NCBI GenBank assembly: GCA_963971425.1
Contig: OZ020518.1
Span: 11,662,190-11,726,189 of the forward strand
Length of the DNA: 64,000 nucleotides
From: Bryoerythrophyllum caledonicum
Lineage: Eukaryota > Streptophyta > Bryopsida > Pottiales > Pottiaceae
Direction of reading: 5' to 3'
Shown here: positions 1 through 42,769 of the stretch, piece after piece
Layout: the number at the start of each line of letters is the position of its first letter
How positions within the stretch are numbered: position 1 is the first letter of the stretch
The notes under the pieces: model-generated
Databases searched by the model: none
Told to the model about the DNA's origin: nothing
The model's input: only the letters and a program-made list of their open reading frames with translations
Translations under genes and position numbers: made by a program

Positions 1-3000
1 CCGGGTTGCAGCCCCATGGAAATTTTCCACATTATAAGCAACAAATTTCCAGGAGTCACGTGAGCAAAATTAGCCTCAAGTTTTCCTGCGAGTTGGTTAT
101 TGGTTTCTCAAGTTGGTTGAATTAGAAAAAATATAAAATAGAGTGGTTTTCCTTGTTGTAAAAAACTAGGGGCGTTTTTTGCTGCCGTCTTCCATGTGTA
201 CGTTTATGAGGTCCATGAAGCTTATTCCCAGAATGTCTGTCTATGTCCATATCGCAGAACTCCTACGAAGGCTTTACTTCTTTCAGCGTGTGTGAAGATC
301 ATGATGCACTGTCAGCCTCCAAACCGGGAGCTCGGCGAGCAGGTCGTTGCCGTGTTTAGAAGGTAATTTGATGTTTTTCATAGAGTTTTTTGTCACTAAG
401 ATCTTTTACTCTCGGTTATTTATCTTGGTTATTGTAGTAGACGACAAAATGGAGAACTCAGGTTTTTTTTCTGTGAAATGACTTTTTGAACAATGTTGAG
501 CAGGTATGAGAGTTCCGTGGATGCGGAACTGCAGCAAAGAGCTGTGGAGTTTCTTGCATTGAGTCGTAAGGGACTGGCCATGGTGGACATCATGGCTGAA
601 ATGCCCAAGTTTCCTGAACGCCAGGTATGGACTAGTTTCTGAAATTAAGATGTTGATTGTATATGCCGTTCAAGTTTTTCGTGGATGGTTTTTGAGGCCA
701 ACTCCTGTAACAGATAACTCTGGTTGTTTAGCGTATATCGTTTCTGTATTGATATTCTTGTAGTTTATAAATCTTTGTTGGATGTATCTTGTGTGAACTG
801 CAGTCAGCTTTATTGAAGAAAGCAGAGGACACAGACGGAGATGCAGCTGAAATAAGTGCAACCAAGATGCGTTTGCAGCAACAAAGCTCAACGGCCTTGG
901 TGGTGAGAGATCCGGAGCCTAACACCGGTGGCCTTCAGCCAGTTTTCATGTCCAGGGCAGCATCTTCCGGCCGACATCCAGTAAGCAGCTACATCCCCCT
1001 GGACTAGATCAGATCGTCTAAATTTGTGCTTTTGCCAACTTGTTGAGCGCACTAATTGGTTATGCCTGATGGTATTGAAATGCCCTAAAATCTTTTACGG
1101 TGTGCCCTGCATGAATGTCATAAATTGCAGCCCTTCATTAGTTCTAGGATATTCTCTTAGGCGCTTAGTTGGACAACTGCTGTTAGTCGATGTTATCGCT
1201 TCAATGCATGAATCTGGAGGGACTTGACTAGAATCACTTGATTCTGTCATGTCTCACAGCGAATAGTATTACAAAAGTATCTGCAGCTGGTTTTATGAAT
1301 GGCATTTTGTTGCATGCAGGAGCAAGCAGCCGATCCCGAGACTCCACAAGCTTCAGAAGCAGTACCTTCGTCGGAACCTTATTCTAATGGAACAAACCCT
1401 CAACAGGCTCCTCGTGCAGCTTCTCGCGAATCTTCTGGTGACTTACTAGGTGATCTTATGGGCCCGCTGGCCATAGAGGCACCTCCTTCTGCAGCTTCCA
1501 CAAGTTCAAGTGATTTATTGGCACTTGAAGGTCCTCCAGGACCACCTGCTGCAGCAGCTGCCCCTGGAGACACTCTTGCATTGGCCCTACTTGATGAAGC
1601 TCCTACGAAGGTCCAGGTATGTCATAGTGGGCCTTTAACACGTTTTGAAATACGCTACTATCAAATTGTCCTTTTATTTCCAGGATTTGGTAGTTAGATC
1701 TTTCTTTCTTATCGACTGAAATGGTACTAAGGAACCATACCAGGGGCTAACTATATGTATCACAAAAATTTCTTTCTAATCAGTATTTGAATTCGCTAGG
1801 CCTTGGTAATGCACGAGTAGAAGCACTAAATTGTGCAATTTGTGTGTCGTACGCAGCCTCTTAGAAATGTAGCGGAATGGTTCAAAGAACTTTCCATGAA
1901 GGACAGTGGTGTGTTGTATGAAGATCCTTATGTACAGGTATGTTTGTTTCGAAACTCTGGGTGCCTCTTATTTATGTGTACGATCATTGTTTTGCTTATG
2001 TTGGAGGTGGCGCCCATTGAGTGATAGTGATGCCTCTGAAATCTATTACCAAATTCGTGTGCATTATTAGCGATGAATGTTATATTTCATACACGATCTT
2101 ATATTTTGAAATTCATGCAGATTGGTTTGAAGGCAGAGTGGCGTAATGCCCAAGGCAGAATGGTCCTTTTTGTTGGGAATAAACACACGGGACCGTTAAC
2201 AAATGTTAGAATTTCAGTTTTGCCGCCACCTCATCTACGAGTGCAATCAGCAGTTGTTCCCAATACCATTCCTCCAAGAGCACAGGTATGTACTTCATCC
2301 ATTTTCACTAATTCAGGACTTTTTGATAGCACGTAAATTTCATGTTTTCTCCAAGCCAAGCGATCTTTCGATATGTAATCTTCTCCACTAAAAGAAGTGC
2401 TTATTAGAGGGTGGTGATCCATCTTTATTTTGCATTGGCTGTGGAGAGATGGAAAGTAATTTTCCAGCTGTCGATGGGAGCTTGCAAATGCAGAACTGTA
2501 TTTTCTCGTTTGTCTCACTCAAGGTTTTATTCCACTTACTTTTATCATGAGGCATGATTTGGCAGGTGCAAGTTCCAGTTGATGTGGCATGCATTCGTGC
2601 AAGCAGAGAGACTGCGGTTCTTGACTTCAACTATCATGTTGGCCATACTCCTGTATGTTCGCAACCTTTAATTTTCAAGGATGTCTGAAAGATATTTGAT
2701 TATATTTTCGAAGTTTTCATTCTTCATTTTGTGGTCCTTCTTCTTTGTGGTGTTACTGCAGTTTTATTTTAGTGTTATGCACTGGTTACATCCCAGTGGG
2801 AGTCGTCTGTTCTTTTATGGTCATTTTTTCCTCCAGTTAAACGTGACAGTCACGCTGATGTTTGCAGGTGAATGTAACAATTAAGTTGCCAACGCTGTTA
2901 AACAAATTTTTGCAAGTTGCTCCTGTATCGGCTAACGAGTTTGTCGCCCGGTGGAGAGCACTTGGGGGCCCACCGACCAAGCTCCAAGAAGTGGTAGTTA

Positions 3001-4016
3001 TTTCTAACTTCGTGTCATCCTAAAAACTTTTGAATGGATGCATCTTTCGCACAATTTTGTTGATTATTTGCAAGTAGTTTGACACAGTGACCTTCGATGT
3101 TCTTTCATCAGTCTCTGCTTGTGATGAGAACTTAGGTTACATCACCTGAATCCATCATGTATCTCGAAGATTGGAAGACTGGAAACAACAGCGTGTATTA
3201 AAGTTCAGTGTGATCAATTGCACTGTGTCTCTGCAAATAGAGTGAGAGATCACTGACCAATTGATTTGTTCTTCGTAGGTTCGTGGTGTAAGGCCTATGC
3301 CACTCGCGGAAATGGCAGACCTCTTTACTCGTCTTCATATTGGTGTTGCCCCCGGCCTTGTACGTTTCAACGCCCGACTTCTATGATTTTCGCTGCGTGG
3401 TCTCAGTATTGTGTTCACACCAGATAGTCCGTTGGATCTGTCTCTCAGAATCAGATCTGTCCTGACATTGGTTACAACCCTAAACTAATGCTGCGAGAGG
3501 TGCAAACTCTGCAGGATCCAAACGTCAACAACATTGTTGCTGCAACAACATTCTATTCTGGAACTGCAGCCACGTTGTGCCTGGTACTGAAACACTTCTC
3601 TTGTCTGTGTTACATTCCAAACTTGCACACAGTCAATGATTGTGAATATGATGTCAACGGCGTGACTTCTGTCTTACAGGTACGCGTTGAGACAGATCCG
3701 TCGGATAGGACACAAATGAGGTTAACAGCTGCTTCAGAAGATCCCAACACTACATACGAGTACTCCATCTCACCTCCTTCGCATGATGAACTGTTATCAA
3801 GAGCTTTCTGAATGCGCCTTGGTTCGTGATTACAAACGTAAAACAGTGGGTTCGTAATGAGATTTATGCAGCTTCTGATTGCGTGTACTGTTCTACAGGC
3901 TGAAGGAGCTGATTAAAGAGCACGTTATGATGGGCATCTCGTTTGCACCGCAACGGCCTCAAGCTCCGCCGCCTTCCGCAATGGGCCTGCCTGCTGCTTT
4001 CGCAGGCCTTATTTGA
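1..4016 (+). CDS. AP-2 complex subunit alpha (alpha-adaptin), C-terminal part, 13 exons
   Basis: Large subunit of the AP-2 clathrin adaptor, which binds membrane, cargo and accessory proteins at the plasma membrane during endocytosis. The 5' part lies outside the window. Exons: 1-59, 258-362, 504-624, 804-980, 1320-1616, 1857-1937, 2121-2285, 2566-2652, 2868-2993, 3279-3359, 3515-3583, 3680-3759, 3899-4016. Joined, they read 521 residues without a stop. The end of the trunk is recognisable (PGCSPMEIFHII, then YESSVDAELQQRAVEF and DIMAEMPKFPERQ). Exon 5 is a low-complexity hinge rich in Ala, Pro and Ser with DLL motifs. The ear follows and ends with VRVETDPSDRTQ and LKELIKEH. The donor after 3759 (GTACTC) is weak but is the only join that restores the expected TYE-LKEL ending. 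All other introns are ordinary GT-AG. Identity is secure; minor exon edges could shift. Confidence 0.93.
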
Positions 4017-4451
4017 TATCCTTTCCTCTTTCCAGGTTCGTGTCATAGATTCTCCCTTTCTAAAAAGAAGAGGATGTTTTGAGCTTACAGAGGTTTGCAC
4101 GCCTCATGCAACGCTTTGTCACACCGCAAATCGTGATTTAGAATTCGACATCAGGATGGTTGGTGAAGTTTTACTCAGATAAGGAATCATCGTCCAAGCG
4201 TTGTTTTTATGTAGAATATGGGTATTTATTTCATGCAAGTGTCTCACTAGTGTTTATTTCAAATAATGGTATTCCAAAGTTCTGCAAGACTTTCTGTCTT
4301 TACTACTTCGTTGCTGACCGAGGCCATCTTTGTTATTGTAAAGTCCGGGTAATGTACTCTGACTAACACAAATTTCATTCTTTTGAAAAAATTGTCCACC
4401 AAATCACCATTCCATTTTTTCATGTTTGGTGATTTGATGGACTTGTTGCCT
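4017..4451. other. 3' flank of the AP-2 alpha gene
   Basis: AT-rich sequence containing the likely 3' UTR and downstream flank of the alpha-adaptin gene. I see no convincing gene. The short open frames here lack splice or family signals. Confidence 0.5.
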
Positions 4452-5753: not shown

Positions 5754-8598
5754 TCACAAAAAAATATTTTCCTTCCATACTTTTTTTGATGGTTGTGGAG
5801 TGAGCTCAAGTCTTGTGGCAGAATCTGATTTGTAGAGCAACTTCATAGTCTTGACTGCTACTAGAGTTCCTAAGATAGGCCCAAGCCAATATACAGCATA
5901 ATGCTCTCCTAAATCATTTTGTTCATTTACAACTGCCCATCCATAAACCTACCATGCCAATATGTCATAAGTATTAGTTGAACACCCAAAAAAACTCAGT
6001 ATTTTTGCTAAACATTGAATTTAAGTGTACAATTTATCAAAAAAATTGAAAATAAGTTTGTAATGTGAGGCAAAGATACCATGAGACGGACCACTCTACT
6101 CATTTTGAATAGTCCTAAATAGTTCTCAATTCATCTGTAATTAAGTCAAAGAAGAGAAAGGTAACTAAGATTTATGGTTCATTATAATCTCTCTTTTTCT
6201 TCTAAATTGTGACTAAGATTAGTTTTGACTTGAGTAGAAAGACTACCATATTCATTTACAGATCTAATAGCCATTAAGTATGAAGAAAGAATAGTATTAA
6301 AATCAAAAGACCGATATCTTATTGGATGGCTAACTCAATTATTAAAAAAATAAGGTAAGCTTAGACATAGAACTTTATTATTTCTAGTTCACAATCCAAG
6401 ACTCCACTATCACATGTCCTTTAAAATATAGTACCAATTTTGAACTTATTGGAATGTTTATTACCCACTTAAAGAACATGATTCTAAAGCTATTGATTGG
6501 ATTAAGATTTTGCGATTTTATAAAAGCTATTGTTTGCATTTAGTATTTTGTGATTTTTTTAAAGCTACTGTTTGGATTTATGATTTTGTGATTTTATAAC
6601 ACAGTTCAACCCTCAAACATCAGAACCTATGACTATGGCATCTTTATCCATTCTAACGTATGCTCTAATTTTTCATTAATATAAGTGTCAACTTTTTTAT
6701 TTCATTTTTTAGAGATGACACCACATGTCTTGTACATGTTACAAATATTCTGAATCTTTTTATTAATGTTCATTATAGTGCCAAAAGTTGTGGTGTGAGT
6801 GAAACTTCTGTGACTAGCTAGATTTAGAAAATCATTCAACCATGGTTATTTTCATAAAACTCAAAATTTTATTACTTATTCTATTTTATGATTATATATT
6901 ATTTTGTTATCTTAAACGCACAATTTCAAATTGTGCATATAATCTATTCAATATTATGGACAACTTTTTTTAATTTCATATTGGAGTAGAAACTAGACTT
7001 TAGGAGCTTCATTTCATTGGTTGGACTGAAATTTTCAAAAAAATCATTCTATTGACTCAAATTTAGATTTAGCACAAAAGCTATAAATTTCTAAAATTCA
7101 CTACATCAATATCCGTGCCACAATTTTTTTTTGGAAGAAACATAATCACCTCAATGAGGCAAGTTTCATCATCATCTAAAGCTTACACATTTATCGAACT
7201 TTCCAAAATAGAATCGGATGAACAATTCTTCAGCTAGTGTCATGCATTCAAAGTCATCGAAGAAGCCACATTTTGGCTTCTCATATGTTCTAGGGTTAAA
7301 AAGGTTTCATTCTAGTCGAGAGTCTCATACACCATACAACGTGAAGGCTGGATTCTAAAAGTAGATGTTTGGCCAGATATATATTTTAGGAAATTAAATT
7401 TTCCACCAAGAAGGAATTAAGTTATTTTGGAAAAATGTTCACCGGAAATGCCGCATAAAAATGTTATATTTCTAATAATGAGTACTCTATTAATGAATAC
7501 CCTCTATTTCTAATAATAGATGATGACAGTTCATTTTTGCAATATTCTCATATGAGACAAACATGTGAAAAAAGGATGCATGGTATGTAGTTTGAAATTG
7601 GACTGTACAAACTTACATTTGTGGGGTTCATTGATGGTCCTGTGTACGGCCCACCAAGGATGACAAGCATAATAGTGGTCAGAACTGGGATGAGCCGCTT
7701 GGCCCATGGATGATTGACTGGCCCCCTGAACGTGGTCATGAGAGACACCAGAATGAGCATGTAGGTTAGGATACCCTCCACCAGAACTCCCTTGAAAGGA
7801 TCCACTTGGAGTGTGGGCCCTCCCACCAAGTGCTTGGCATCGGGTGGCACAAATTGCATGACAAATACCGCCGCCCACATGGCTGCCACCATCTGCCCAC
7901 ACAAAACTTGAAATTAGTCCATTTCCATGAGGTTTGGAGACAACATAGCAATCATAACATTTCTACACACAAACAAAATTGGTGAAAATGAGAGCATAAT
8001 TCACAATGTCTTAATTGGCAATTGAATTCCACATTGTGAATTATATATTCTAATCATTTCAGTTTTAAGAAAAAAAAAGAATTGTCTTGCCTGAGCCATC
8101 GAGCGGACCAAGATGGTTACCACAGTGTGCCGATTGTAACTCTCTCCCAAGTACGCAAACGCCACCAAGCTCAAAATGTTCCAGCACGCGCCGCCCATCC
8201 ACGTCGCCAGATACAAAAAAGACGGCAACACCACAAGCATCGCCCCCGCCATCAACACACCCAACACATCAAGATCCCAATCCAACTCCTGCACCACCAA
8301 ATTGTTGTGTAACGTGTCGTTACAATAATGCAAACGCAGTAGTGGAGGAACAAGCTAAAAACTTCAACATATTTGCTCTGGAAAACAGAATTATAGGAAC
8401 GACTCAATAATGGCTACCATCACAGAGAAGGAGGGTTATGCAGCTAGTGAGTGTTCTGCTAACTTTAACACGTGAAGAGTTATGTACCTGCACCATCTGA
8501 TGGGCCCCCACTCCCACGGCCGACATGCACGTCATCCACACGAACGTGATGGCGGCGTCCTTCACCGCCATCTCCGCCAGCCACAGGTCGCGGTCCAT
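5754..8598 (-). CDS. SIP-class aquaporin (small basic intrinsic protein), 4 exons, 259 aa
   Basis: A membrane channel of the MIP family; plant SIPs sit mainly in the ER and conduct water or small solutes. Exons on the minus strand: 8598-8488, 8288-8091, 7892-7617, 5948-5754. Phases match throughout. The product has hydrophobic segments typical of the six-helix fold, and the second half is diagnostic: GPYTGPSMNPTN joins directly to VYGWAVVNEQ and then HYAVYWLGPILG. Odd points: the first NPA box reads N-I-L (residues 74-76, in GGACWNIL), the second reads N-P-T (192-194), and intron 2 has a GC donor (CAG/GCAAGA). The last intron is about 1.7 kb. I chose the ATG at 8598 because it gives a normal SIP length. 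The frame stays open upstream to about 8760 but has no ATG, so an extra 5' exon is possible. Confidence 0.86.
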
Positions 8599-9878
8599 CT
8601 CGCACCAGAGCGGTTGTATGTGGAAGCGCGGGCGGAGGAAGCCGGTGCTGTCCTCCTTCCATAGCCAGGGCGGCTTGCAGTAGTAGTCCGGGGAGAAGAT
8701 CACCGCGGTGTACTGTTCCCCCCTGTGCCGCTCCTTCCTCGGTCTACCTATCTTTGTGTCTCACAAATCCAGGATCATACTATGATTCTGGCTCCTAGAT
8801 TCCTCAAGTGGCTCCTCAGTTTCACTATCTGATTCTCATGAAACTACAGGTTCTATCTCTAGGGGTTTACTAAACTCTACACGGCTACACAAAATTTTAA
8901 TAAAAACACGTCTCTTATTTGTAAATTGCTCTTTAGCTCTTGTTAAGAAACTATTTCAGCTCAAGAAAACAGAAAATCAAGCTCAGAATTTTTCACAAAG
9001 GACCAGATTCATTGCGGTCCTGAAAGAGGAATCATGAGAAGCTCCAAACATGCACTCCAGAGCCATCAATTAAGTTGCCCTAATAGATGAGTATGTCGCT
9101 CTACCACTCCTTGAATCAAACCAGAAGAACGCACAATTGCTGTAGATGATTACAAATTTCAATCAAAGGTGACGTTGGAGAGGTAAACGTTTTCAACTTT
9201 ACAAGTCAGGCAAGTCGTTTGTAGAGCTTTTACCGTGTCAAACAACTGGAGCCGAGGATTACACCTGATCATGACAACGTACTATTTGCTACACAGAAAT
9301 TGTCGGTGCACGAGTTGCATATCTAGACCACCAGCTTGCTACTTCAAGATGTTTGCGCAAAGAAATAAATGTGTGGTACCTGTTGGTGTCAAAGGTCAAC
9401 TCAAAGGACGTTCTCACAAGCGATTGAGCCACTTCGAATCTGCCATTCCTGGACGGCAGCAAATGCACCTCAAGGCTGTAACAGCCAGTTTCATGTCGAT
9501 GGAAGTCATCCCCTTTCAAATACAAGAGATGATACGGTATGCCGTCAATCTACGTCAGATTATTCAGTGTTGCAAGACACGTAGAATTATCACACCCGTT
9601 GGATAAAATAAATTCAAAGTGTATGACCCTCAATCACAATGGTTGCAATTAAACCACGGATTACTACACGGTGCTTTTTACAGCCATGGAATACTAGCAG
9701 ACTTGCAATCCTATCCCCCCACTTCTCAAAGTCCTTCCAACTCAAACTCACTCGCTGACTCTATTGATTAAGTGGCATGAGAGCCCTAGTTTAGTGATGC
9801 TAACAAGTGGTGGGGAGGCAAGTAAGTGAGAGTTGTTACCTAGAACCTTGTTGATATTGTACATGAGAGAAAACCTCA
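8599..9878. other. Intergenic, upstream of SIP and downstream of the E2/E3 gene
   Basis: Both neighbouring genes are on the minus strand, so this 1.3 kb should hold the SIP promoter and 5' UTR and the 3' end of the E2/E3 transcript. Open frames at 9235-9606 have no recognisable product or splice support. No repeat structure was seen. Confidence 0.5.
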
Positions 9879-12800
9879 TCAAACGAAACGGTTCTTGAGC
9901 TCAGTTTTTATTTCCTTGATAAAGGAAACCATCCGTTTCTGGGCTGCGGTTTCTGTGGTCAAGATCAACCACTCATCACATTGTTGCTCCACCTCTTCTC
10001 GCTTGTATCTAAAATGCTCACAAATGAGGTCAGCGAACATCGGATCGGGCTTTTGCAAAGGAGCCAAAATGGCTAATGAAAGGGTATTTTCACGATGTCG
10101 CATGTTCTCTTTCTCAGCTTGATCTGTACTCTTCTTTCTCTCATACCCCGGTTCATTGTAGTATGGATCCTGTACGAAGATCAGTGATTGGATCGAAACC
10201 AAAACTTGTAAAAGTGTAGACTTTCCAGGCGTCCAACTGGGTCCACTCCATGTGCCCAATAAACTTAAGCAAATCTTCCCTGTATTGTAGAGATTTGGAT
10301 TGAACCGCACTTTACCACCTCCCGTTGTCAAAAAATGCACAGAGGGTGGAACTTGGGGGTAATCTGCATAGAACAGATTCAAAGAATGTTCAATCACGTG
10401 AAAGTAATCACTTTCACGACAAAAATTAATCAAGATATTTCTGTATTTGATTACATTGGTTACAATTCTTTTTTTGAAACGTCGTTTGGAGGAAAATAAT
10501 ACGTACCAGGAGGCAAAAATATGTCAAAGAGGAAGATTCCATTTTGATATGGAGTGGCACTTGGTCCAATAATCAAAGCTCGTAAAACATCCATTCGATG
10601 TTGGTCCACACAGAGGTGAATCCCAGATTCCCATTCCAAAGGTAGTGTTGTGGATAATGATGAGACCTCCTTCACCATGTACAGCATGCGCTTCTGATTA
10701 TGAACCCCTCTTTTATCGATTGCATGTGATGCTTTCCCTGCAATTTGATCTCTAAAATGGTGCCTATATTGTCCATTCTCATCCACCATTTGAACCTCTT
10801 GAAACTGGAGGCCTTTGAGCTTTTCTTTATAGATTGCGGCAGCTTGTTGCTTAAGCTTTGAATCATCCCCCAACAGCGTATTAGTGGAAACCATAACACC
10901 TTCTAGTGAAAGGGACGCAGGGGACACAGTTGCATTTGCCTCATGAAGTGATTCATAACACTCACATATGCCGATGGCAAGGTTAATATCCATCTGAGCA
11001 GTTGCATCAGTTGCTTCGTTGGCTTGGAAACGCTGTACCATGACCTGTGTAACAAAAAGTTTCGATAGGATACGAATTAAAGATTGAAGTTTGCGAAGTC
11101 TTTGAAATTCTTATTAATCAATTGGCACATGATCTATCTAGGATTGATTTAACATTACCTTTGCCTGCTTGTAAATGTTTTGCATCTTCTTGACCAGAGT
11201 ATTGTCTTTGTCTTCAGATACTTTAACACCATTTGCATTCGAATTATTGCTTTTGTGGGGGAAAACTGAACTGTTCGCATCCCAAATTTCTTGATCTTCG
11301 TGAAAGCTTGACTCCAATAAAATGGGCTCCAGTTCCTTGTGAAGTCTAATAGCTTTCAATAATGCAATCTGCACTACATTCTTTTGATTAGCAGATGACA
11401 TACGACCAGGAAAAGAAAATAAAATCATTGGAAAGGAAAATTAGAAAAGAAAACGTGCAAAACATTTTCAATTTCAAATAATACTAACCATTTTGCTGTA
11501 AAGATTTCTCCTCTCTGAGATATCAAGCATGGAGTCGTTGGTAGCCAACTGGCACAGCACATTCTTTAAAATATTCTCCGAACCAAACAGCATACATATA
11601 TATGCAGGTAAGACAATCCCAGAACCTCCTCGATCCAATGCAGTGGAGAGATAGTGAAATGCAACTGCAACTTTGTTATCAAGCTCCAGCTCTTTCTTCT
11701 TAGCTGCGAGCAGCATGCTCTCGGTCGATTTCTTGTTTTCAACATTATCTCCGCCGAAACCTGGAACAAGAAATTCAGTAGTTAGAAAAACGTCTGGTAA
11801 GAAAACACAGTATGAATCTTCACATAAATTGTAGTGGTTTCAACTCCAGGTTATGAAGAAAAGTATACCTGTTCCAGAGGCCCATATTGTTGAATTGCTA
11901 GACTTTGGTGTAGTTTTGCGCTCTGATGAAAGCTGCAAAAACAAAACTATTACTCAGTGTCTTGACTTAAGAGGGCAAAGCCATTTTGATAGAATCCAAC
12001 GTCTTTAAAGGTCAAGAAAATCGTTAACTTGTAACCTTCTTCCTAGATAGCTTGAACCGAGAATAGTATTCCCACAGGCCAAGGCACTCGGAGAATCTTT
12101 ACTGCTAAATTGTCTTTGCAACTCTATTAAGATTTTTAAAATTATTGATTAAAAGCCATTAGAAGTGAATAAGTAGAAACTTGCGTCACCTGGCGGCCCT
12201 GTGTGAGGATCGTACAAGCTTTGTCAAGATCCACTATGCACTTGTATACCATAAACTTCCACTGCCCCTTGCATTGTGGATGCATTTTGTTTCTTTCATT
12301 TTTACTTCGGGGAGCTGGCATGACCATCCCACAAAAAGCACACCAGGCTGTATCACAAACTGCGCACGACCAGAATACCTTGCTCCCTTCTTCTTTGAAT
12401 CCCCCTGAATGCAAGTACAACCTCGCATGCATCAATTTCATGTTTTCTGTGTGACGACTGATTTCTCTGAACTTCGTCATTATGGCATATACGACGAGGA
12501 AAAGGCAATATACAGCCTGGTCTCGCACATCATGAGCGGCAATGAAATCCGATATTTCAAAAATCAGAAAGAGGAGTAAACAAATAATAAAGAAACTTTC
12601 AGAATCTCGATCACAACGGAAAATTCAAGGCTATCAACTATTAATCTTCTGAAATTTATCATGCACTTCGTCGAACATGAACAATCTTTAACACAAACTC
12701 ACAGGAGTAGATTTTCATCTACTTCGCTCAACGATGACATCAAAGAATACTTACCTTCTGGTATAAGAAGATCTTTCTGGGTTACCAATAGAGTTGCATT

Positions 12801-14578
12801 GGACTTCCTCTGATCGCAATTCAGGTTCAAGCAACGCATGGACTGAGCTGTCGTCGACTTTGTGAGAGGGGCAAAATATTTTCCGTAGTTCGATAAATAC
12901 CATTTTCCATAAGATCGTACCCTTTTGTCGCCGAGAAGGTCTACCAAGTTCTTCCAACCTAACTCCTCCGAGCAACTGTCCACGTACACAGTTGAGAATT
13001 TTGTGAATAACATTACAAATACTGACTGCCAAACCAGGTATTCGCTCTTTCTCAACAGATTGAACGACCGTTGAAGAGGGAATACTACGACCTTTGAACT
13101 GATCTTATCAGTCATGAGAAAGACCCGTGAGGACACTTCTAGACAGCATCCTCGCAGATGGAATACTTCACAGAAAAATTATTGGTGTTTTACATTCACT
13201 GTTATTATTGCGACCATTCCTAACGCTTAATGCCAAGACCGAATCGACTATGATAGTCTATTACGACGCAATCATTGACAAAGATAATTCGCTTGAAAAA
13301 AAGTCATTACTATATTCTTAGGTGTAATATTAAACAGGAAAGAAGACATTAACTACAACTATCAATTGCATTCAATAAAGTAGTAATGCAATTGATAGTT
13401 GTAATAAATGCAATGACTCAAATGTGACGCACGATGTACCTGGACATTGGACAGCAAGAACGAGTAGCAAGAGACTCTTTCAAAGTTGAATTATCGAGGC
13501 CTTTCACGGCATTCGAGGCGTGCTCTTTGATACAGCTACGACAGAATTGGTGACCGCAACTTGTGGTAAATGCATCTTCTGCTTTTGATGTATGACACAC
13601 TCCGCATTCATCACTATCTCCTGCTCAGAAAACATGTAGGCAATTTCTACACCAATAAGTACCATAACAACTCTAAGTTAGCAGCAGATAGGCAGATAAC
13701 ACCGTAATATACGTTTGAGGGGATCTTCAATTACCCTCGCAATAAGCACTGAGCTAACTTCCAAAGGAAAAATCAGTCACAGTCGCTAATTTTCATCATA
13801 AACTCTCCTCCTGATATACTCACAATCTCAACAGGCTGATCCAAAATCATCGCCTAGTGCATGACAGAATTGCTCGAACGAAACGAGCATGCAGACGGCG
13901 ATAGACCGTAATTAACAGTTCTGCGAATCAGCGCACGTATCACTCGCACGCGCACAATACGAGGCAGGTTTTGGACAATTACCGCCGGCCAATACCGCGG
14001 CCGTCACGACAAGAACAGTCTACGTCAACAACAAGAAAACTTCTGTGCATGCACGACACTCGGGAATCAACGATCTCAACCACCACCAAACCTCTCACCA
14101 CCCCGCAATCAATCAACAAAGAAATTGCGCCGACACGCAACAAACGCCCAATTCCAAATTGCAACAACGAATCACCTTCGTCGTCGTCATCACTGAGGAT
14201 AATCACATCACCAACAGCGTCGTCATCACTGAGGATAATCACATCACCAACAGCGCCGTGCGCGCGATACTCCTCCACGCCGTCCATGGCGCCATCGTCC
14301 TCATCGCCGCCGCGCCTCGGAAGTTTCAAGCCGCGGCCGCCGAACTCGTCTCCGTCCGCCGTAATTGGCCGATGGAAACACGAGAACAGCTTCTTCGGGA
14401 AGGAGAAACCGCTCGACTTGTTGTTCGCATGGGGAATTGCGACCGCGGCGCCTCCTCCCGCCAACGCCTCCTTCTTCAGCGCTCCGCCTTCCCCGTCCAT
14501 CTCCGCCGCGCGCTTCTTGCTCTTAATCCGCGTCGAAGGCCCGCCCGTCGCGCGATCCTCCTCCGCTGCTACCGCCAT
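9879..14578 (-). CDS. SIM-RING-IBR-UBC protein: candidate E2/E3 ubiquitin hybrid, 9 exons, 862 aa
   Basis: Exons: 14578-14176, 13620-13440, 12975-12755, 12404-12190, 11932-11869, 11760-11489, 11368-11159, 11044-10507, 10363-9879. They keep phase and give 862 residues. Residues 1-134 are basic and acidic tracts with two tandem VIILSDDD boxes, textbook SUMO-interacting motifs. Residues 140-196 are a RING of the RBR RING1 type (C140, C143, C156, H158, C161, C164, C191, C196). Residues 243-313 fit an IBR zinc domain (CxxxxC at 243-248, CxxC at 282 and 285, CxxC at 290 and 293, HPQC at 310-313). A helical region follows (about 360-520, with [16 protein letters not shown]). The C-terminus is a UBC domain of the BIRC6 subtype, with [19 protein letters not shown] placing the catalytic cysteine at C733, then [11 protein letters not shown]. 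No RING2 was found. The donor of exon 1 (GAAG/GTGATT) is the least certain join. A nuclear, SUMO-targeted role is an inference. Confidence 0.85.
13355..13402. repeat. Perfect 18-bp hairpin in an intron
   Basis: ACAACTATCAATTGCATT is followed after 12 bases by its exact reverse complement. It lies in the intron just downstream (in transcript sense) of the RING exon, 38 bases past the donor. It may be a tiny MITE remnant or an RNA hairpin. Confidence 0.8.
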
Positions 14579-15072
14579 AGCCACCAAGCTTCCTGCAAAG
14601 GCAGCAACACAGCTTCCACTCCAGAAAAAACAAATATCTCCGGAGCCTCGGGCCCCGTCCTCTCACTAATCCCTCGGTAACTCCGCCACAAAAAAACTCA
14701 CTAACTCATAATCCCGTGACTAATCACTAACTTAGTCCCGTGACGAAATCGTCGCCGTATGACTGCGTCCGTAATGCCCACGAATTCCGTCCCTGGGGAA
14801 GACGGAAGTGACTGAACAGTCGGGGGTCGTTGGACGAAGAAGTTAGCGGAGAGGAGCATTTGCACTCCAACTAGCTCCGGCTAGTACTGTAGTTGGCAAC
14901 TTGGCGGATTAGCTTTTGTGGAAAGGGATGGTGTGCCAACTTACGCTAAATTTGGAGGTGGAGTTACACCTACACTTGTACGTACTCACGAAGCCTGATT
15001 GCTTCAAAGAATATATGTGGGTCCTACGTGGCAGGTGGCTTTACCGCTTTACCGCTTCGCCTCTCTAATACA
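14579..15072. other. 5' flank and likely promoter of the E2/E3 gene
   Basis: The GC content falls from the GC-rich first exon into this stretch. No clear core promoter element was found. It ends at the 18-bp minisatellite. Confidence 0.4.
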
Positions 15073-15216
15073 ACGGGTTTAGGTCATATGACGGGTTTAG
15101 GTGATAGAACGGACTTAGGTCATAGGACGGGTTTAGGAGATGGAACGGGATTAGGTCATAGGACGGGTTTAGGTGATGGAACGGGATTAGGTCATAGAAC
15201 GGGTTTAGGTGATGGG
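15073..15216. repeat. Minisatellite, eight 18-bp units
   Basis: Eight units of the form ACGGGTTTAGGTSATRGR fill exactly 144 bp. The units alternate between CATAKG/CATAGA and GATGGA types, so the higher-order period is 36 bp. Read on the plus strand it encodes repeating TGLGDG/TGLGHR inside an open frame (15028-15231). I do not regard this as a gene, because nothing around it is gene-like. Confidence 0.9.
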
Positions 15217-15231
15217 AATGATGTCGAATAA

Positions 15232-16250
15232 TCCCAAGTGTGCAAATTCGATAATATGGATAAAATGACCTAATGTGTCATATTATCTTGAAAATAAGCG
15301 AGATGCATGTATAATTCTTCTTTGAAAATTGTAAATTGATATTGTATACTTTCTAGGTCTAATTGGATTGTAAACATAATATTCAGGAGCTAAAGACACC
15401 CCAGCAGACCACATAGATCCATATCCAACCACCACTTCATTGAATTCAGATATTGTAACGATAGCTTTTCACTTGCAAGAATAGAGAACAGAAATAAATA
15501 AGTGTCAACCAGTGGTTGATGACATTGTTGCACTTGGGTGGAAGGTTGATTCCTTTATTATCATCAGAGTTGGTGCCCGAGCCACTGCCTTTATCCCATT
15601 AATGGTGACTCTTAAAGGCATATTTAATATTCCCATTGATTCAATTAGATACACATTATAAAAGACATTAACAATATTGCAGTCCAACCTCCTACTGTAT
15701 GTCCATACTTCTACGTGAAAGAAAAAATTGAGACAACCAACCCATGCCAAAATTATAGGATAACTCATAAGCTTACAAACACGACAAACTTTGGAACAAA
15801 AAATGGCAAAAATGTGTATTTGATCCTTTGTGTATTTAGTCGTTAGTTACATGGTGTGTACCCTTTAGAGAGGGAAGTAGTTCCATACTATTAACCTATG
15901 TTCGGTGGAGATAGACTTAGTGGTGGAATGAATAGACACTTTATTTATGCTCGCCTCCTTTGGATACTAGAGTTGTTCTTTTCCGTTAGCTCAGAAATCC
16001 TTCTCTTTTCTTATGATGGTAAATCATTTCAGGCATAATTGAGTTATTTCCATGATTCTATTTGTATGGTAAATAATCTTACCTAAAGCTAAGTACAAGG
16101 AGGATGATTTTCCTTTGCTTGTCATGATAAGAGAGTCTCAAAACTTATCAATGCATATCTCTTAGTAATGTTATAGAAAATACACAATAAAATATTATTT
16201 TAGATGAATAACGTCTTGGATTAAAAATAATTGACCACTTGAGCCTTGTC
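15232..16250. other. Intergenic, no feature recognised
   Basis: AT-rich sequence with no gene-like exon, clear tandem repeat or terminal-repeat element that I could identify. Confidence 0.4.
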
Positions 16251-26347: not shown

Positions 26348-29300
26348 ATGGTGGGGAGCGAGTTCCGCTTCTTCCTGTCGTGTGACATCAACCTGCCCGT
26401 CACCTTCCGCGTCGAAGCCCTCCTCGGCGACCCCCCTCCCTCGCCCTCACCCGGTACGCAAAACCCTCCGATGGTCCCCAATGGTCCCCAATGGTGGCCT
26501 AATTGCAGCCTCTGGTGGAGACGAGGGAGTAGAGCATTGGGTTGTGGGGTTTCATAAGTTTGTGAGATGATTCCTCGTTGAATTTGCGGTTTTTTAGGGC
26601 TTTTGTGTGTGGATACTCTGATTGTAGCAAATTGGATTCTAGGTTTTTGCGTCGAGGGAGTGGGTTGTGGGGTTTTATGATTTCGTGAGATGAATTTGCG
26701 ATTTGAGGTTGGATTTTTTGTGGGCTTGAGAGGAATTTTGGGTATTCTTGCAGATGCTGTAGTTGGCGCGCCTGTTTCGACTCCGGAGCTGTTCGTGGAG
26801 TGCGCGCTTTACCTCGATGGCGTGCTCTTTGGCCTTCCAACACGGACTAGGTGTGGCAAGAATTTCATTGCAGGGGTTGGTGAATCAGTGTTTGTCATGA
26901 TTTATGTGATGGATCTCACTTTTGCTCTAGTTTTATTGATCTTCTGGTCCTGTGTTTTTTTACTTGATTTTTTTTCTGCAGGTTGGCTTCGATTGAGAAG
27001 CCCTGGCGTTGGAATGAGCTTGTTACGCTGAGCGCTAAGTACCGAGACTTAACAGCCAATGCTCAACTTGCTCTCACAGTCAGTTTCTCTTTCCTTTCCT
27101 GATGAGAATGAAGAATTATATCATGTTTAAAGATTATGGCATATTTTTTAGGGTTTGTTTAGGTTTGACTCCTAAGTTCCATTGTCAAAGGTGAGATATT
27201 TTAATCATGTGTCGAGAGTAATAGAAGCTTACTGTAGAGCAAACCTTCTTCTTTCTATTGGTATATAAATCTACCCCTTTCTAGAAGGTTCTCAGTGATG
27301 GTTTAGACGTTGAATGAGCCATTTTTGGATAAGTTTTGACTTGCTCTAGAGAGGTGATATATTGCAATTTTGATACTCAGATTAGGATTTGGGACATGAA
27401 GCAGGGTGTTGGTACAAAGTCCAATGACCTATTGGTAGAAACTGGAACTGTTGTGGTGTAGGATTGACACATCTGGCGTTGCAGGTGTGGGACGTTTCTA
27501 CACCAAGGCAAGAAGTGGTGGTCGGAGGCGCAACCTTGGCCCTGTTTAGCAACAAGAAGCAGCTGAGAACAGGCAAACAAAAGCTGCGGTTGTGGCGTGC
27601 AAGGCAAGCAGATGGCTCTGTGCCTACCAGAACTCCTGGCAAGGTAAAGAAAGATTGAATATGATAACCCCCTCTTTTCATTCAAAACCACCTCTTCATA
27701 TTCATGATTGAAATTCTTTCTGCACTCTCAAAGATGGCTGAAAGTTCTCTGTCTTGAGTTTAGAGACCATCAAAGAAGGATAAGACCACTGATTTCTTCT
27801 GTTGATCTAGTTAGAGCGAGGAAAGAGTGGGCAAACGTTTGGGTGACTTTACAAAGCACTCTGTTGATGTGGTTGAAGGATAAGTCTATCAAGCTCTAGT
27901 AACTAATCAGAGTGAGGAAAGAGTAGTCTTAAGAGGGGGTATTTTATTGACTTTTTCAAAAAAACTCTCTGTGGTTCAGGTGCCCAAGCATGAACGCGGT
28001 GAAGTAGAGCGCCTTGAGAACCTGACGAACAAGTTTGAGAGGGGCCTGGTTCCACACATCGACTGGTTGGACCGTCTCACGTTCAAAGCCGTTGAAGAAA
28101 TCAAGGAAGCCGAGAGCAAGCGCAGTGGCAGCTCTCAGCTTCATCTTGCTGTAGACCTGCGCACATTTGAGCATCCTGTTGCATTCCAGGTTCAATTTTT
28201 TCTGGTCTATCTTTCTGTACCTTCTGATGCAGAATTGCCATCTCCTGAACTTAATTCTTTTTTTTTACTCGTCTTGGTCTTTGCAGGAGCTAGGTGCGAA
28301 TTTGTTGATGCAGTCACCTATTTCGCCTTCCAATGAGCTTGTGACAGTTTGGGATCCTGAGCTGGGCCGGCAAAACCCTTCGGAAAACAAGCAACTCAAA
28401 CTCGCTCGCAGTGTGACAAGGGGCGTTATTGATCGTGAGCTGAAGCCAAGTTCTAACGAGAAAAAGTACAGCACCTTCTCAAATTGTCTTTCCATCTTGG
28501 CTATTGACCTGGTGTTCCTCTTTGAAGGGTGGTATCTTGATGTGCCACACTATAGAAACTGGTTCGGAGTATGTGTAGGGTTTCTTGTGGCGTGTTTCTG
28601 GTTTGGGAGGTATTATAATCGAGATGGTGAGTAACTCATTGGTATGTTCCATGTGTTGTTGGCACACAGGGAGATCCAACAGGTTTTGAAACACCCTCCA
28701 GCGCGGAGTTTGAGTGGAGAGGAGAGACAGCTCTTGTGGAGGTTCAGGTTTTACTTGATGTCAGAAAAGAGAGCCCTGACCAAGTTCCTCCGATGTGTCG
28801 ACTGGAGTGATGCGCATGTAAGTCTTCTAATTTCAAGTAAATGGTCAATCCACTAAAGAAAGATTGTTCAGCACTGTCAATAATGCAAGTTTATAGATGC
28901 AATTTTATCTAAGATGGCGTAATTTTGCATGAATCAGGAAGCAAAACAAGCAGTGGACTTGATGAGGCGATGGGCTCCGATTGATATTGCAGATGCTTTG
29001 GAGCTTCTTTCTCCTGTTTTTGAGAGTGAAGAGGTAATGTGGTTTCAGTTTTCTGATCCCCTCTGGAATCATTCATTTCCTTTCGCATTCAAGAAAAAAA
29101 ACCAACCAAATACTTAGAAAATATTGAGGTTTATAATCTAGATATCAATCGGACTATCATCCTGATATTGCATGACTATTTGAAAATACCTCGGCTACAA
29201 GGACGAATTGGAATTAGAAACTATTGACACACCCTCCTTAGTTTGTTGTCACAAATGAATTATGAAACATGAGCTTATTTACTGTTGTTCTTATGTGTAG

Positions 29301-39927: not shown

Positions 39928-42769
39928 TCACCATTGGTTTTTTCCTTCCTCAATCACTTTCCCTGCATAGAATGGTACACCGCCTTCTATTTCTACTCGA
40001 TCAACACTCAAGGCTACAAATTGTTTACAATAGATATCACATTGTGGATTAAATGGTCGAAATGGGTCGTGATTACCTTCATACATTGCTCTTTCTTTGG
40101 CTCGTTCCTCATCATAGTTGTGCTCTGTTCGTTGTGCCCTGCGCAATGCTTGATTTGAGGGTCTTTCTCTACGAGGACCAAAGTATCCTTGAGCCTTGGC
40201 ATTTGAAAGCATGGCCACTACCTGCTCTACAACATTTATCTCGCGATTTTCTTCACTTGCACCATCCATCACATCCAAAGATGCACTCTTTGTAGGTCCG
40301 GTGTTGGAGAACTCTGAAGGCCAAAACGGTGAGGAACGATGCTCATTGCTATGATCTTTATGAAGAAATTCAGCTAAATAGAGTTTCAATCTTTCAGCCT
40401 CTACTTTTGCCTTACAATTCTTGTCCTCATGCTGCAATCTTTGAATGCACCTTTGTTTACATACACTGAAGTCATCCAACGCCTTCAACTCCCGTTCGTC
40501 CGCTCCAAATACTTTCGCAAACGATGGTCGCTCATCCCTACTTGGCAACAACCTCAAAGTTTTCGTCCCTGCCTCCGATCCCCATGGATCCTTGCAATAA
40601 TGCTTGTGTTGTACTCGAACCTCACGAGTCCCTTCTCGATTGTCCATATAGAATTGCATGTGGTGCGGAAATGTTATGCCCACTAATGAATCTTGACCTG
40701 TCAATAAGTAAGGAGTTATGAACAATTTCCAATCCCATACATTCCCTAGCAGCCAGGCACTAACAAATGCCTCCGTAGGAGATGTTCCTCGTTCTATAAG
40801 ACTAATCATTTCCTTCAACGAGTCCACATCCGACCTCTTCAACATATTTGATATACAACTCAAGCGTTGATCAATATCTTCGTGTGTATGGCCCACTTTA
40901 AGAAAAGATAATTCCACTTCCTGGAAAAACCCAAATCCCACCAATGTAGCACATAGAGAAAACATATAAATGATTTTGTTCTCGCGTTTTCATTTGTTTG
41001 CCTGAATTTGTTATGTTGGTGGCAAAAAGCCATTCCTCCGCAACACATCTCCAATCACGTACAACAATGTACTCACAACTTACTTGCTATCGTGTTTGTG
41101 GTGAGCCCAAAACCACACGTCGCAATATAAACCAACCCCATATACAAGAGCACCACACAGATGGATTTTAACAAAGCGGTGTCCAATGTTCTTCACAATC
41201 TAACGCATCCTCAGTACCATGGTCGTGTTTTGGTCCATGCCATCCACTATGATGCACATGTACAACTTAGGGCTAATATAACACGACCTCTTGAATATCC
41301 AATAATGCCTACATTCTTCCATCTCGTTGCGCAGATGCATCATAAACAATTCCTTTATCTTTATCCTTGCATCCGCATTGGTGGTTCCCTTCATGGCACA
41401 TTTATACTCCCAACATTGATAACACTTTGACAATCTCGAGAATGGAGGTACCTGAACGTGGGGATACTTGATGCGCCACATCCTCCGGAACGAACTCATA
41501 GAAATGGTTTTGCCATTACAAATTCTCTTAGCCTCATCGTTCACATAATATGAATACATCAAATTTGGTTGTATTCATAGGAAGGAGAATGAGAGGCACC
41601 ACTTCGTTCTCACTCTTACAGCAAATACAACGATGAGGTTGAGGACAACAAACTTTATTGACAAATGATTTAAAGCAAGCCTCTGCCGCACAAATTCTAG
41701 TGCTCTCTCTAATCGGATCTGAAAGGCTATTTCCGTGAATCAATGTCACTCTTCTATAAATTAAACAATCCTTCTTCAATTGCTTAAAGCGCCCCTGTGA
41801 ATATCCAATCCCAGGAGCGTAGCAAACATTGCAAACTTGTTTTCCATCTAACTTTATTACAAATTTGTCTGAACGAGTTCCTTCCGTCCTTGTGTAAAAA
41901 GAAACCAACATCTGTCTTATCCACGTACTTTGTACGAAGAACTCATTAGCCTATGCATTATATCACATGTCCAATAGATACCTTGCTGGAACACCCCTCA
42001 AACAATTGCGTTTGCATCCTCCTTGTGCCATTGCAATTTGCACGCTTCTAAGCGATACCTCAGATGGTGGACCTTCTGTCAATGATGGCTCTCTTGAATC
42101 TCTCCTTCTCTTATCTTGCATAGAATAGGAACGACGTGCTGGTTTAACATAAGCAAATCCATCTACATAGGACAAATCTTGGATGTTTGAGGGAGTAGGT
42201 TGGAAAAACGACGAATTTTCATCTATGGCGTTTGAAGCATGACTACTACGTCGAGAACTCTCGGTGGATCGTGGTGTGTTGATGAACTCAGAAAAATCAA
42301 ATTCTGGGGCCATCACTTGTGTAAGCGCTATCTGTGATCCAATGTCACCTTGGACACTTGTGATATCAGGTTCTACAACCACTACTCGTAGCAAAGACCG
42401 ATGCCAACGAATGATCAAGCCTATACACATGCCAAGGCGTTCTCCTACAATCTCTCCGGTCCAATACAATGCATCATCTACCCTTGTAATATGCACCGCC
42501 ACCTCGAATAGGAACAACTTCGACCCATTCAATTCCATGCCGCTTTAGAATGTATGTTCCCTAGTTGTTAAGCCCACCACATCTCATTTTTTAGAAAGCA
42601 ATTCTACTACCCTTCCCAATTCATATGTCATGATCCCAACAGATCTCTGTTGAATTTGCCTTGCACGTGCTGCTCGTATTAATCGAGCCCCCACAGAGCT
42701 ATTGGAAAGCATATTATCCCTTTGGATGTGTGGCCGTATCGAAGGAGTTTGAATCGTGCCGTTCTCCAT
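39928..42769 (-). pseudogene. Degenerate transposon-type gene with GHTHEDIDQ motif (DUF7869-like)
   Basis: Reading from 42769: an N-terminal piece with RLIRAARARQIQQRSVGIM; 42538-41963 ending in CKRNCLRGVPARYLLDM; 41911-41534 with VCNVCYAPGIGYSQGRFKQL and a cysteine-rich CCPQPHRCICC; 41562-41200 with VPPFSRLSKCYQCWEY and YMCIIVDGMDQNT; and 40965-39928 with ELSFLKVGHTHEDIDQRLS. This order fits a widespread eukaryotic family usually listed as DUF7869 and suspected to be an RNase H-like transposase. It is broken: stops separate the first three pieces and frameshifts occur near 41550 and 41000. In the latter the QHNKFRQTNEN segment, where I would expect a D-N...E-N pattern, is in a different frame from HTHEDIDQ. 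I see no intron signals that repair this. Flanked by TTAA-family repeats H and E. Confidence 0.7.

Follow-up and report, generated by a model that had tools for sequence, protein, structure and literature searches.

We analyzed a gene on the minus strand of a 64,000-nt stretch of Bryoerythrophyllum caledonicum DNA (assembly GCA_963971425.1, contig OZ020518.1, positions 11,662,190 to 11,726,189; hereafter the window), which belongs to a 437-Mb genome of 894 contigs. The gene runs from 14578 to 9879 and is predicted to join, in one chain, a RING-containing zinc front to a ubiquitin-conjugating enzyme (E2) domain, UBC, of the kind found in BIRC6. Exon borders were re-derived from the minus-strand sequence 15600..9001. 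The nine exons were consistent in phase, all eight introns were GT-AG, and the spliced product was 862 amino acids (aa) long (862 codons and the stop) with a single terminal TGA, which reproduces the nine-exon model of a preliminary description of this DNA together with its landmarks, namely VIILSDDD at residues 113 and 125, CGVC at 140, C196, and GKICLSLL at 730 with C733. Exon 1 (14578-14176) begins with the ATG at 14578, encodes a basic, disordered-looking start and boxes like SUMO-interacting motifs (SIMs), and ends at the donor AAG/GTGATT. Exon 2 (13620-13440) carries the RING ligands C140, C143, C156, H158, C161, C164 and C191; exon 3 (12975-12755) carries the last RING ligand C196, a linker, and the first two IBR-like cysteines, C243 and C248; and exon 4 (12404-12190) carries the IBR-like residues C282, C285, C290, C293, H310 and C313. 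The BIRC6-like module begins in exons 5-6 (11932-11869 and 11760-11489), where the WASGTGFG motif is found. Judging from the BIRC6 alignment, exons 7-8 (11368-11159 and 11044-10507) encode the linker to UBC and the first part of that domain, and exon 9 (10363-9879) encodes its catalytic part with C733LSLLGTW740, a BIRC6-type C-terminal extension, and the TGA stop.

The UBC domain was recognized by the Pfam model UQ_con at residues 663-775 (83.1 bits, E 1.8e-23). In a PDB sequence search with the protein, for which the best 60 of 335 matching sequences were considered, residues 339-846 matched the C-terminal end of BIRC6 with an E value of 6.8e-67, so that the alignment takes in the C-terminal extension. 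UBC-bearing BIRC6 fragments scored 213 bits, followed by 9qgg with 187, UBE2Z with 133, and UBE2O-type entries with at most 132; the title of 9qgg is BIR repeat containing ubiquitin-conjugating enzyme, which we take to be Drosophila BRUCE. Identity to BIRC6 was 43% over 253 aa, and NPNLYN, GK-x-C, TW and NEPGYER were common to both proteins. C733 aligned to the catalytic-loop cysteine of BIRC6 with NPN just upstream. The catalytic region retains the cysteine and the asparagine as well as a tryptophan, W740, seven residues further along, and the loop after W740 is three residues shorter than in BIRC6. By alignment, W740 is the counterpart of W4645, the BIRC6 tryptophan that masks the catalytic cysteine, as W195 does in UBE2Z; the available part of the same source also states that BIRC6 is loaded by UBA6 better than by UBA1 (PMC4705383). 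These results bear out the earlier proposal of a complete BIRC6-subtype UBC with C733 as its catalytic cysteine. Furthermore, residues 341-587 alone matched BIRC6 chains only (5 of the 5 matches listed with E up to 10), with E values of 0.009-0.031 that were weak yet collinear. Because the likeness to BIRC6 extends beyond UBC, the RING appears to be joined to a BIRC6 C-terminal module, not to a lone E2. The idea of an E2 in cis thus stood in that UBC follows the zinc front, but the joined unit is larger than had been supposed.

As for the zinc front, the Pfam model zf-C3HC4 matched residues 140-170 with 26.2 bits (cut-off 21; E 7.3e-6), and all eight RING ligands, C140 through C196, were retained; the other 13 families listed in the Pfam scan, including several RING models and IBR, remained under their cut-offs. 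An hhalign comparison with a RING1-IBR profile of ARIH1, ARIH2 and Parkin gave a score of 46.1 and a probability of 92% over 63 columns (residues 149-218), with the match spanning the junction of exons 2 and 3. The maximum scores of shuffled controls were 30.9 (40 shuffles with Cys and His kept) and 20.7 (40 full shuffles), supporting the RING1 assignment. The RING itself is thus sure, and its RING-between-RING (RBR) type is a less sure reading, based on the spacing, the helix after the RING, and the cysteines behind it, with a profile comparison that covered ARIH1, ARIH2 and Parkin only. The cysteines behind the RING are spaced C-x4-C-x33-C-x2-C-x4-C-x2-C in an IBR-like manner, although the position of the final His and Cys is unusual. 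This six-cysteine order appeared in 3 of 20000 shuffles of the region and 1 of 5000 shuffles of the whole protein, as counted with a pattern that was drawn up once the sequence was known. No CxxC was found beyond residue 294 of the 862-aa product, in agreement with the earlier statement that a RING2 with its acceptor cysteine is missing.

The SIM-like boxes at residues 113-120 and 125-132 are encoded by an exact 36-nt tandem duplication on the minus strand (14183..14254; units 14254-14219 and 14218-14183). Since the units are identical at the DNA level, the boxes are one duplicated motif, not two independent ones, so that of the tandem SIMs described earlier the VIILSDDD sequences at 113 and 125 were found in place but their independence was not upheld. 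When the exon-1 peptide was shuffled, at least one match to our own SIM pattern was seen in 125 of 20000 shuffles and at least two in 2 of 20000, the latter count being meaningless as independent evidence because of the exact duplication. A link to SUMO is a hypothesis suggested by this SIM-like sequence.

Whether exons 1-4 are coding and belong with exons 5-9 was addressed by codon usage and by the positions of possible starts. Codon-usage scores of exons 1-4 in their own frame were 0.184, 0.079, 0.066 and 0.161, resembling those of exons 5-9. They exceeded the scores of all 288 intron window-frames (maximum 0.003), a lenient control, as the score background consisted of the very introns compared and depressed them by construction. 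The true frame also scored higher than the other two sense frames in four of four exons. Antisense frames came close to the true frame in exon 1 (up to 0.161) and exon 4 (up to 0.144), and the strand is therefore less well separated in these two exons. Exon 2 has no in-frame ATG between the upstream stop and the exon, indicating that it requires an upstream exon. Since intron 1 contains 12 other in-phase ATG-to-GT pieces, exon 1, which bears the SIM-like boxes, is less certain and might be one of alternative first exons. Exon 5 likewise lacks an ATG of its own before an upstream in-frame stop is reached. Nor do the 257 nt of intron 4 include an ATG-started piece reaching a GT in the phase needed by exon 5, unlike introns 1, 2, 3 and 6, which do contain ATG-to-GT pieces in fitting phase. 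Exon 5 is probably coding because its WASGTGFG is common to BIRC6, which has WAKGTGFG; without a start it would have to be joined by splicing to a coding exon further upstream, for which exon 4 is the nearest candidate and has the correct phase. The earlier claim of one gene with RING and UBC in a single chain is accordingly favored by the in-phase splicing and by the absence of an own start in exon 5. Note that of four polyadenylation-type motifs, none was present in intron 4 and only one followed the real stop (TGTAA, 9682); with just one motif there, this comparison says little.

Several observations nevertheless weigh against reading the locus as a single chain of an RBR-like front and a BIRC6-type module. 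The seam between the two parts is no more than two residues away from intron 4 (BIRC6 similarity starts at residue 339, and exon 5 at residue 341), i.e., at an intron, exactly where a false join would fall, and the gene model is a prediction from genomic sequence. This placement of the seam suits a reading in which two adjacent genes have been misjoined, a RING/IBR-like protein in exons 1-4 and a BIRC6-type E2 in exons 5-9; reading on from exon 4 is indeed possible up to a stop at 12142, and a phase match at a single junction is expected by chance in one of three cases. Two genes are, however, improbable in our view and this reading is largely rejected, as a start codon is missing for exon 5, intron 4 offers no suitable substitute, and the BIRC6-common motif in exon 5 calls for an upstream coding exon. 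On the protein side, the RING had TRAF6 as its best phmmer match in PDB (E 0.0007), followed by RNF4 (0.004), with ARIH2 at 0.006. IBR scored 8.0 bits in Pfam, where the cut-off is 24.3, and the IBR part alone scored 16.7 in the profile test, where the maxima were 24.4 for shuffles with Cys and His kept and 19.1 for full shuffles; of the IBR described earlier, the rare cysteine order stood, but the profile score was within the shuffled range. Directly behind the last RING ligand stands a serine (S197). In canonical RING E3s (ubiquitin ligases), an arginine after the last ligand helps activate the E2~ubiquitin conjugate, and S197 in place of this linchpin arginine argues against direct activation of E2~ubiquitin by the RING. 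Finally, identities over the UBC core were nearly equal for BIRC6 (50%), UBE2O (47%), and a UBE2O-like gene of the same genome (49%), so that assignment to the BIRC6 subtype depends on signature residues and on the similarity of the flanks. A UBE2O subtype was rejected on scores and flanks, though the core identities are close.

With these points weighed, we put the chances at about even that a single gene codes for a compact ubiquitin enzyme of the E2/E3 hybrid type, akin to BIRC6 and UBE2O, in which the SIM-like/RING1/IBR-like front of exons 1-4 is spliced in phase to the BIRC6-type module of exons 5-9 with the UBC active site intact. The available text of PMC13061254 terms BIRC6 and UBE2O E2/E3 hybrids that combine the two functions in a single chain. 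In the proposed mechanism, C733 would be loaded with ubiquitin by a ubiquitin-activating enzyme (E1), and UBC would, like BIRC6 and UBE2O, hand the ubiquitin straight to a lysine of a bound target. The preliminary description had suggested that the protein charges its own E2, which is not retained, because E2 charging is done by an E1. Together with the SIM-like motif, the zinc front would stand in for the substrate-gripping, BIR-bearing body of BIRC6 and recruit targets, possibly SUMO-modified ones. The front might also hold or position the charged UBC of its own or a partner molecule, and the RING may grip the charged UBC. No thioester relay via a ligase cysteine is expected since RING2 is missing.

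More specific, and possible to a clearly lesser degree, is that the protein is an RBR-like ligase in which a BIRC6-type E2 in cis has taken the place of the catalytic RING2, with RING1 taking the charged E2 of its own chain and the SIM leading to SUMO-marked proteins, i.e., a one-chain SUMO-to-ubiquitin relay. With a serine, not an arginine, after the last ligand, transfer driven by the RING in cis is no more than possible. The lack of the linchpin arginine, together with the degenerate IBR and the absent RING2, also speaks for a zinc front that is merely a binding domain, UBC acting E3-independently like UBE2O and RING neither binding nor activating an E2. BIRC6 itself functions without a RING, none being named in its domain list in the available part of PMC10827748. 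On the other hand, the eight RING ligands are all kept, and V142, I165 and P192 occupy what we take to be the positions where RINGs contact E2, and we consider a binding-only front unlikely, if somewhat less so than the one-chain relay. RING1 might instead recruit a separate E2 in trans while the BIRC6-type UBC extends chains, so that two E2s would act in turn on one scaffold. RING E3s commonly pair with separate E2s, and many other UBC-domain matches exist in the genome (47 at the exon level, own gene included), but an in-cis E2 is already at hand, and the proposal is quite improbable.

The hybrid enzyme may be compared with several known systems. It shares with BIRC6/BRUCE/Apollon the UBC subtype, the C-terminal extension, and the WAxGTGFG region upstream, but BIRC6 has ~4860 aa against 862 aa here, and the RING and IBR-like zinc set is found here only, being outside the domain list in the available part of PMC10827748. 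BIRC6 is marked by a BIR domain and a giant armadillo body; no BIR domain was found in the Pfam scan of the 862-aa product. The predicted protein thus resembles the C-terminal end of BIRC6 and, by architecture, is not BIRC6. With UBE2O it shares the idea of an E2/E3 hybrid and the NPNLY...GK-x-C active site (132 bits), whereas UBE2O is without the BIRC6-type flanks and a separate UBE2O-like gene is present on contig C10 of the same genome. The plant PHO2-type E2s are of the UBE2O kind. RBR ligases (ARIH1, ARIH2 and Parkin) have a similar RING1 with a following helix and a similar IBR-like cysteine order, but the protein here is without RING2 and its acceptor cysteine and has an E2 in the same chain. 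As in the SUMO-targeted ubiquitin ligases RNF4 and RNF111, a SIM-like box precedes the RING, and RNF4 is among the RING matches in PDB; here, in contrast, there is no linchpin arginine, the E2 is in cis, and SUMO binding is putative. No natural chain with RING/IBR and UBC was found among the matches listed from the open-licence literature, as far as the available parts of those sources go. Grau-Bove et al. surveyed domain architectures of the ubiquitin system (PMC4327156, available in part), and the available part of PMC11354881 treats BIRC6 as a multidomain E2 and names no RING fusion. E2/E3 hybrids are already known, the novelty of this domain order is unproven, and public databases may well contain an annotation of the gene already. 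Such hybrids are few. A small natural relative in which a RING precedes the BIRC6 catalytic module would offer a tractable 862-aa system for studying the cooperation of an E2 with a RING inside a single chain, the function of the BIRC6 C-terminal module once the giant body is gone, and a possible role of BIRC6-type E2s from other lineages in SUMO-linked turnover.

A search of the genome with exon 9 returned its own locus as the best match and one other place, with 49% identity over query residues 16-102. This second match (G000:C10:26276137-26276406) is the UBE2O-like gene mentioned above, whose best PDB match was an E3-independent E2 with 168.6 bits against 149.5 for BIRC6. The genome-wide UBC search listed 47 exon-level matches, own gene included, of which 30 were made into loci. 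When the catalytic-loop pattern was compared in 33 loci (L001-L033), leaving out 17 UBC matches without loci, NPNLYN was seen only in L001 and L019 of the gene described here, and NPNLYE in L002 and L003 of the C10 gene. Scans for relatives elsewhere gave 4 and 59 pattern matches in two viral-contig scans and 56 in genome contigs, the latter scan being confined to prokaryotes, with none confirmed in any of them. Two pairs of UBC domains with opposite orientation and equal scores were also seen, C6:14553713-14554162 and C6:14569784-14570233 (~16 kb apart) and C3:23586484 and C3:23606634 (~20 kb apart); both pairs are possibly recent inverted duplications.

Within the window, an 18-nt minisatellite with units like ACGGGTTTAGGTGATAGG lies upstream of the gene at 15054-15233. 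Intron 2 contains a 26-nt inverted repeat at 13347-13410 (92% complementary, 12-nt loop), which might be a remnant of a small mobile element. No matches were obtained when the window was scanned for tRNAs and against Rfam. On the plus strand, 1-4020 presumably corresponds to the C-terminal half of an AP-2 alpha-adaptin gene (one piece tried, no Pfam match), and on the minus strand, the exons at 7531-8760 resemble what we take to be a small aquaporin-like membrane channel (three pieces tried, no Pfam match). A weak PI3K_C2 match at 27884-28333 on the plus strand (E 0.0004, under the cut-off) is possibly part of a PI3-kinase gene, and a DUF7869 match was found at 39931-40989 on the minus strand (E 9.3e-26).

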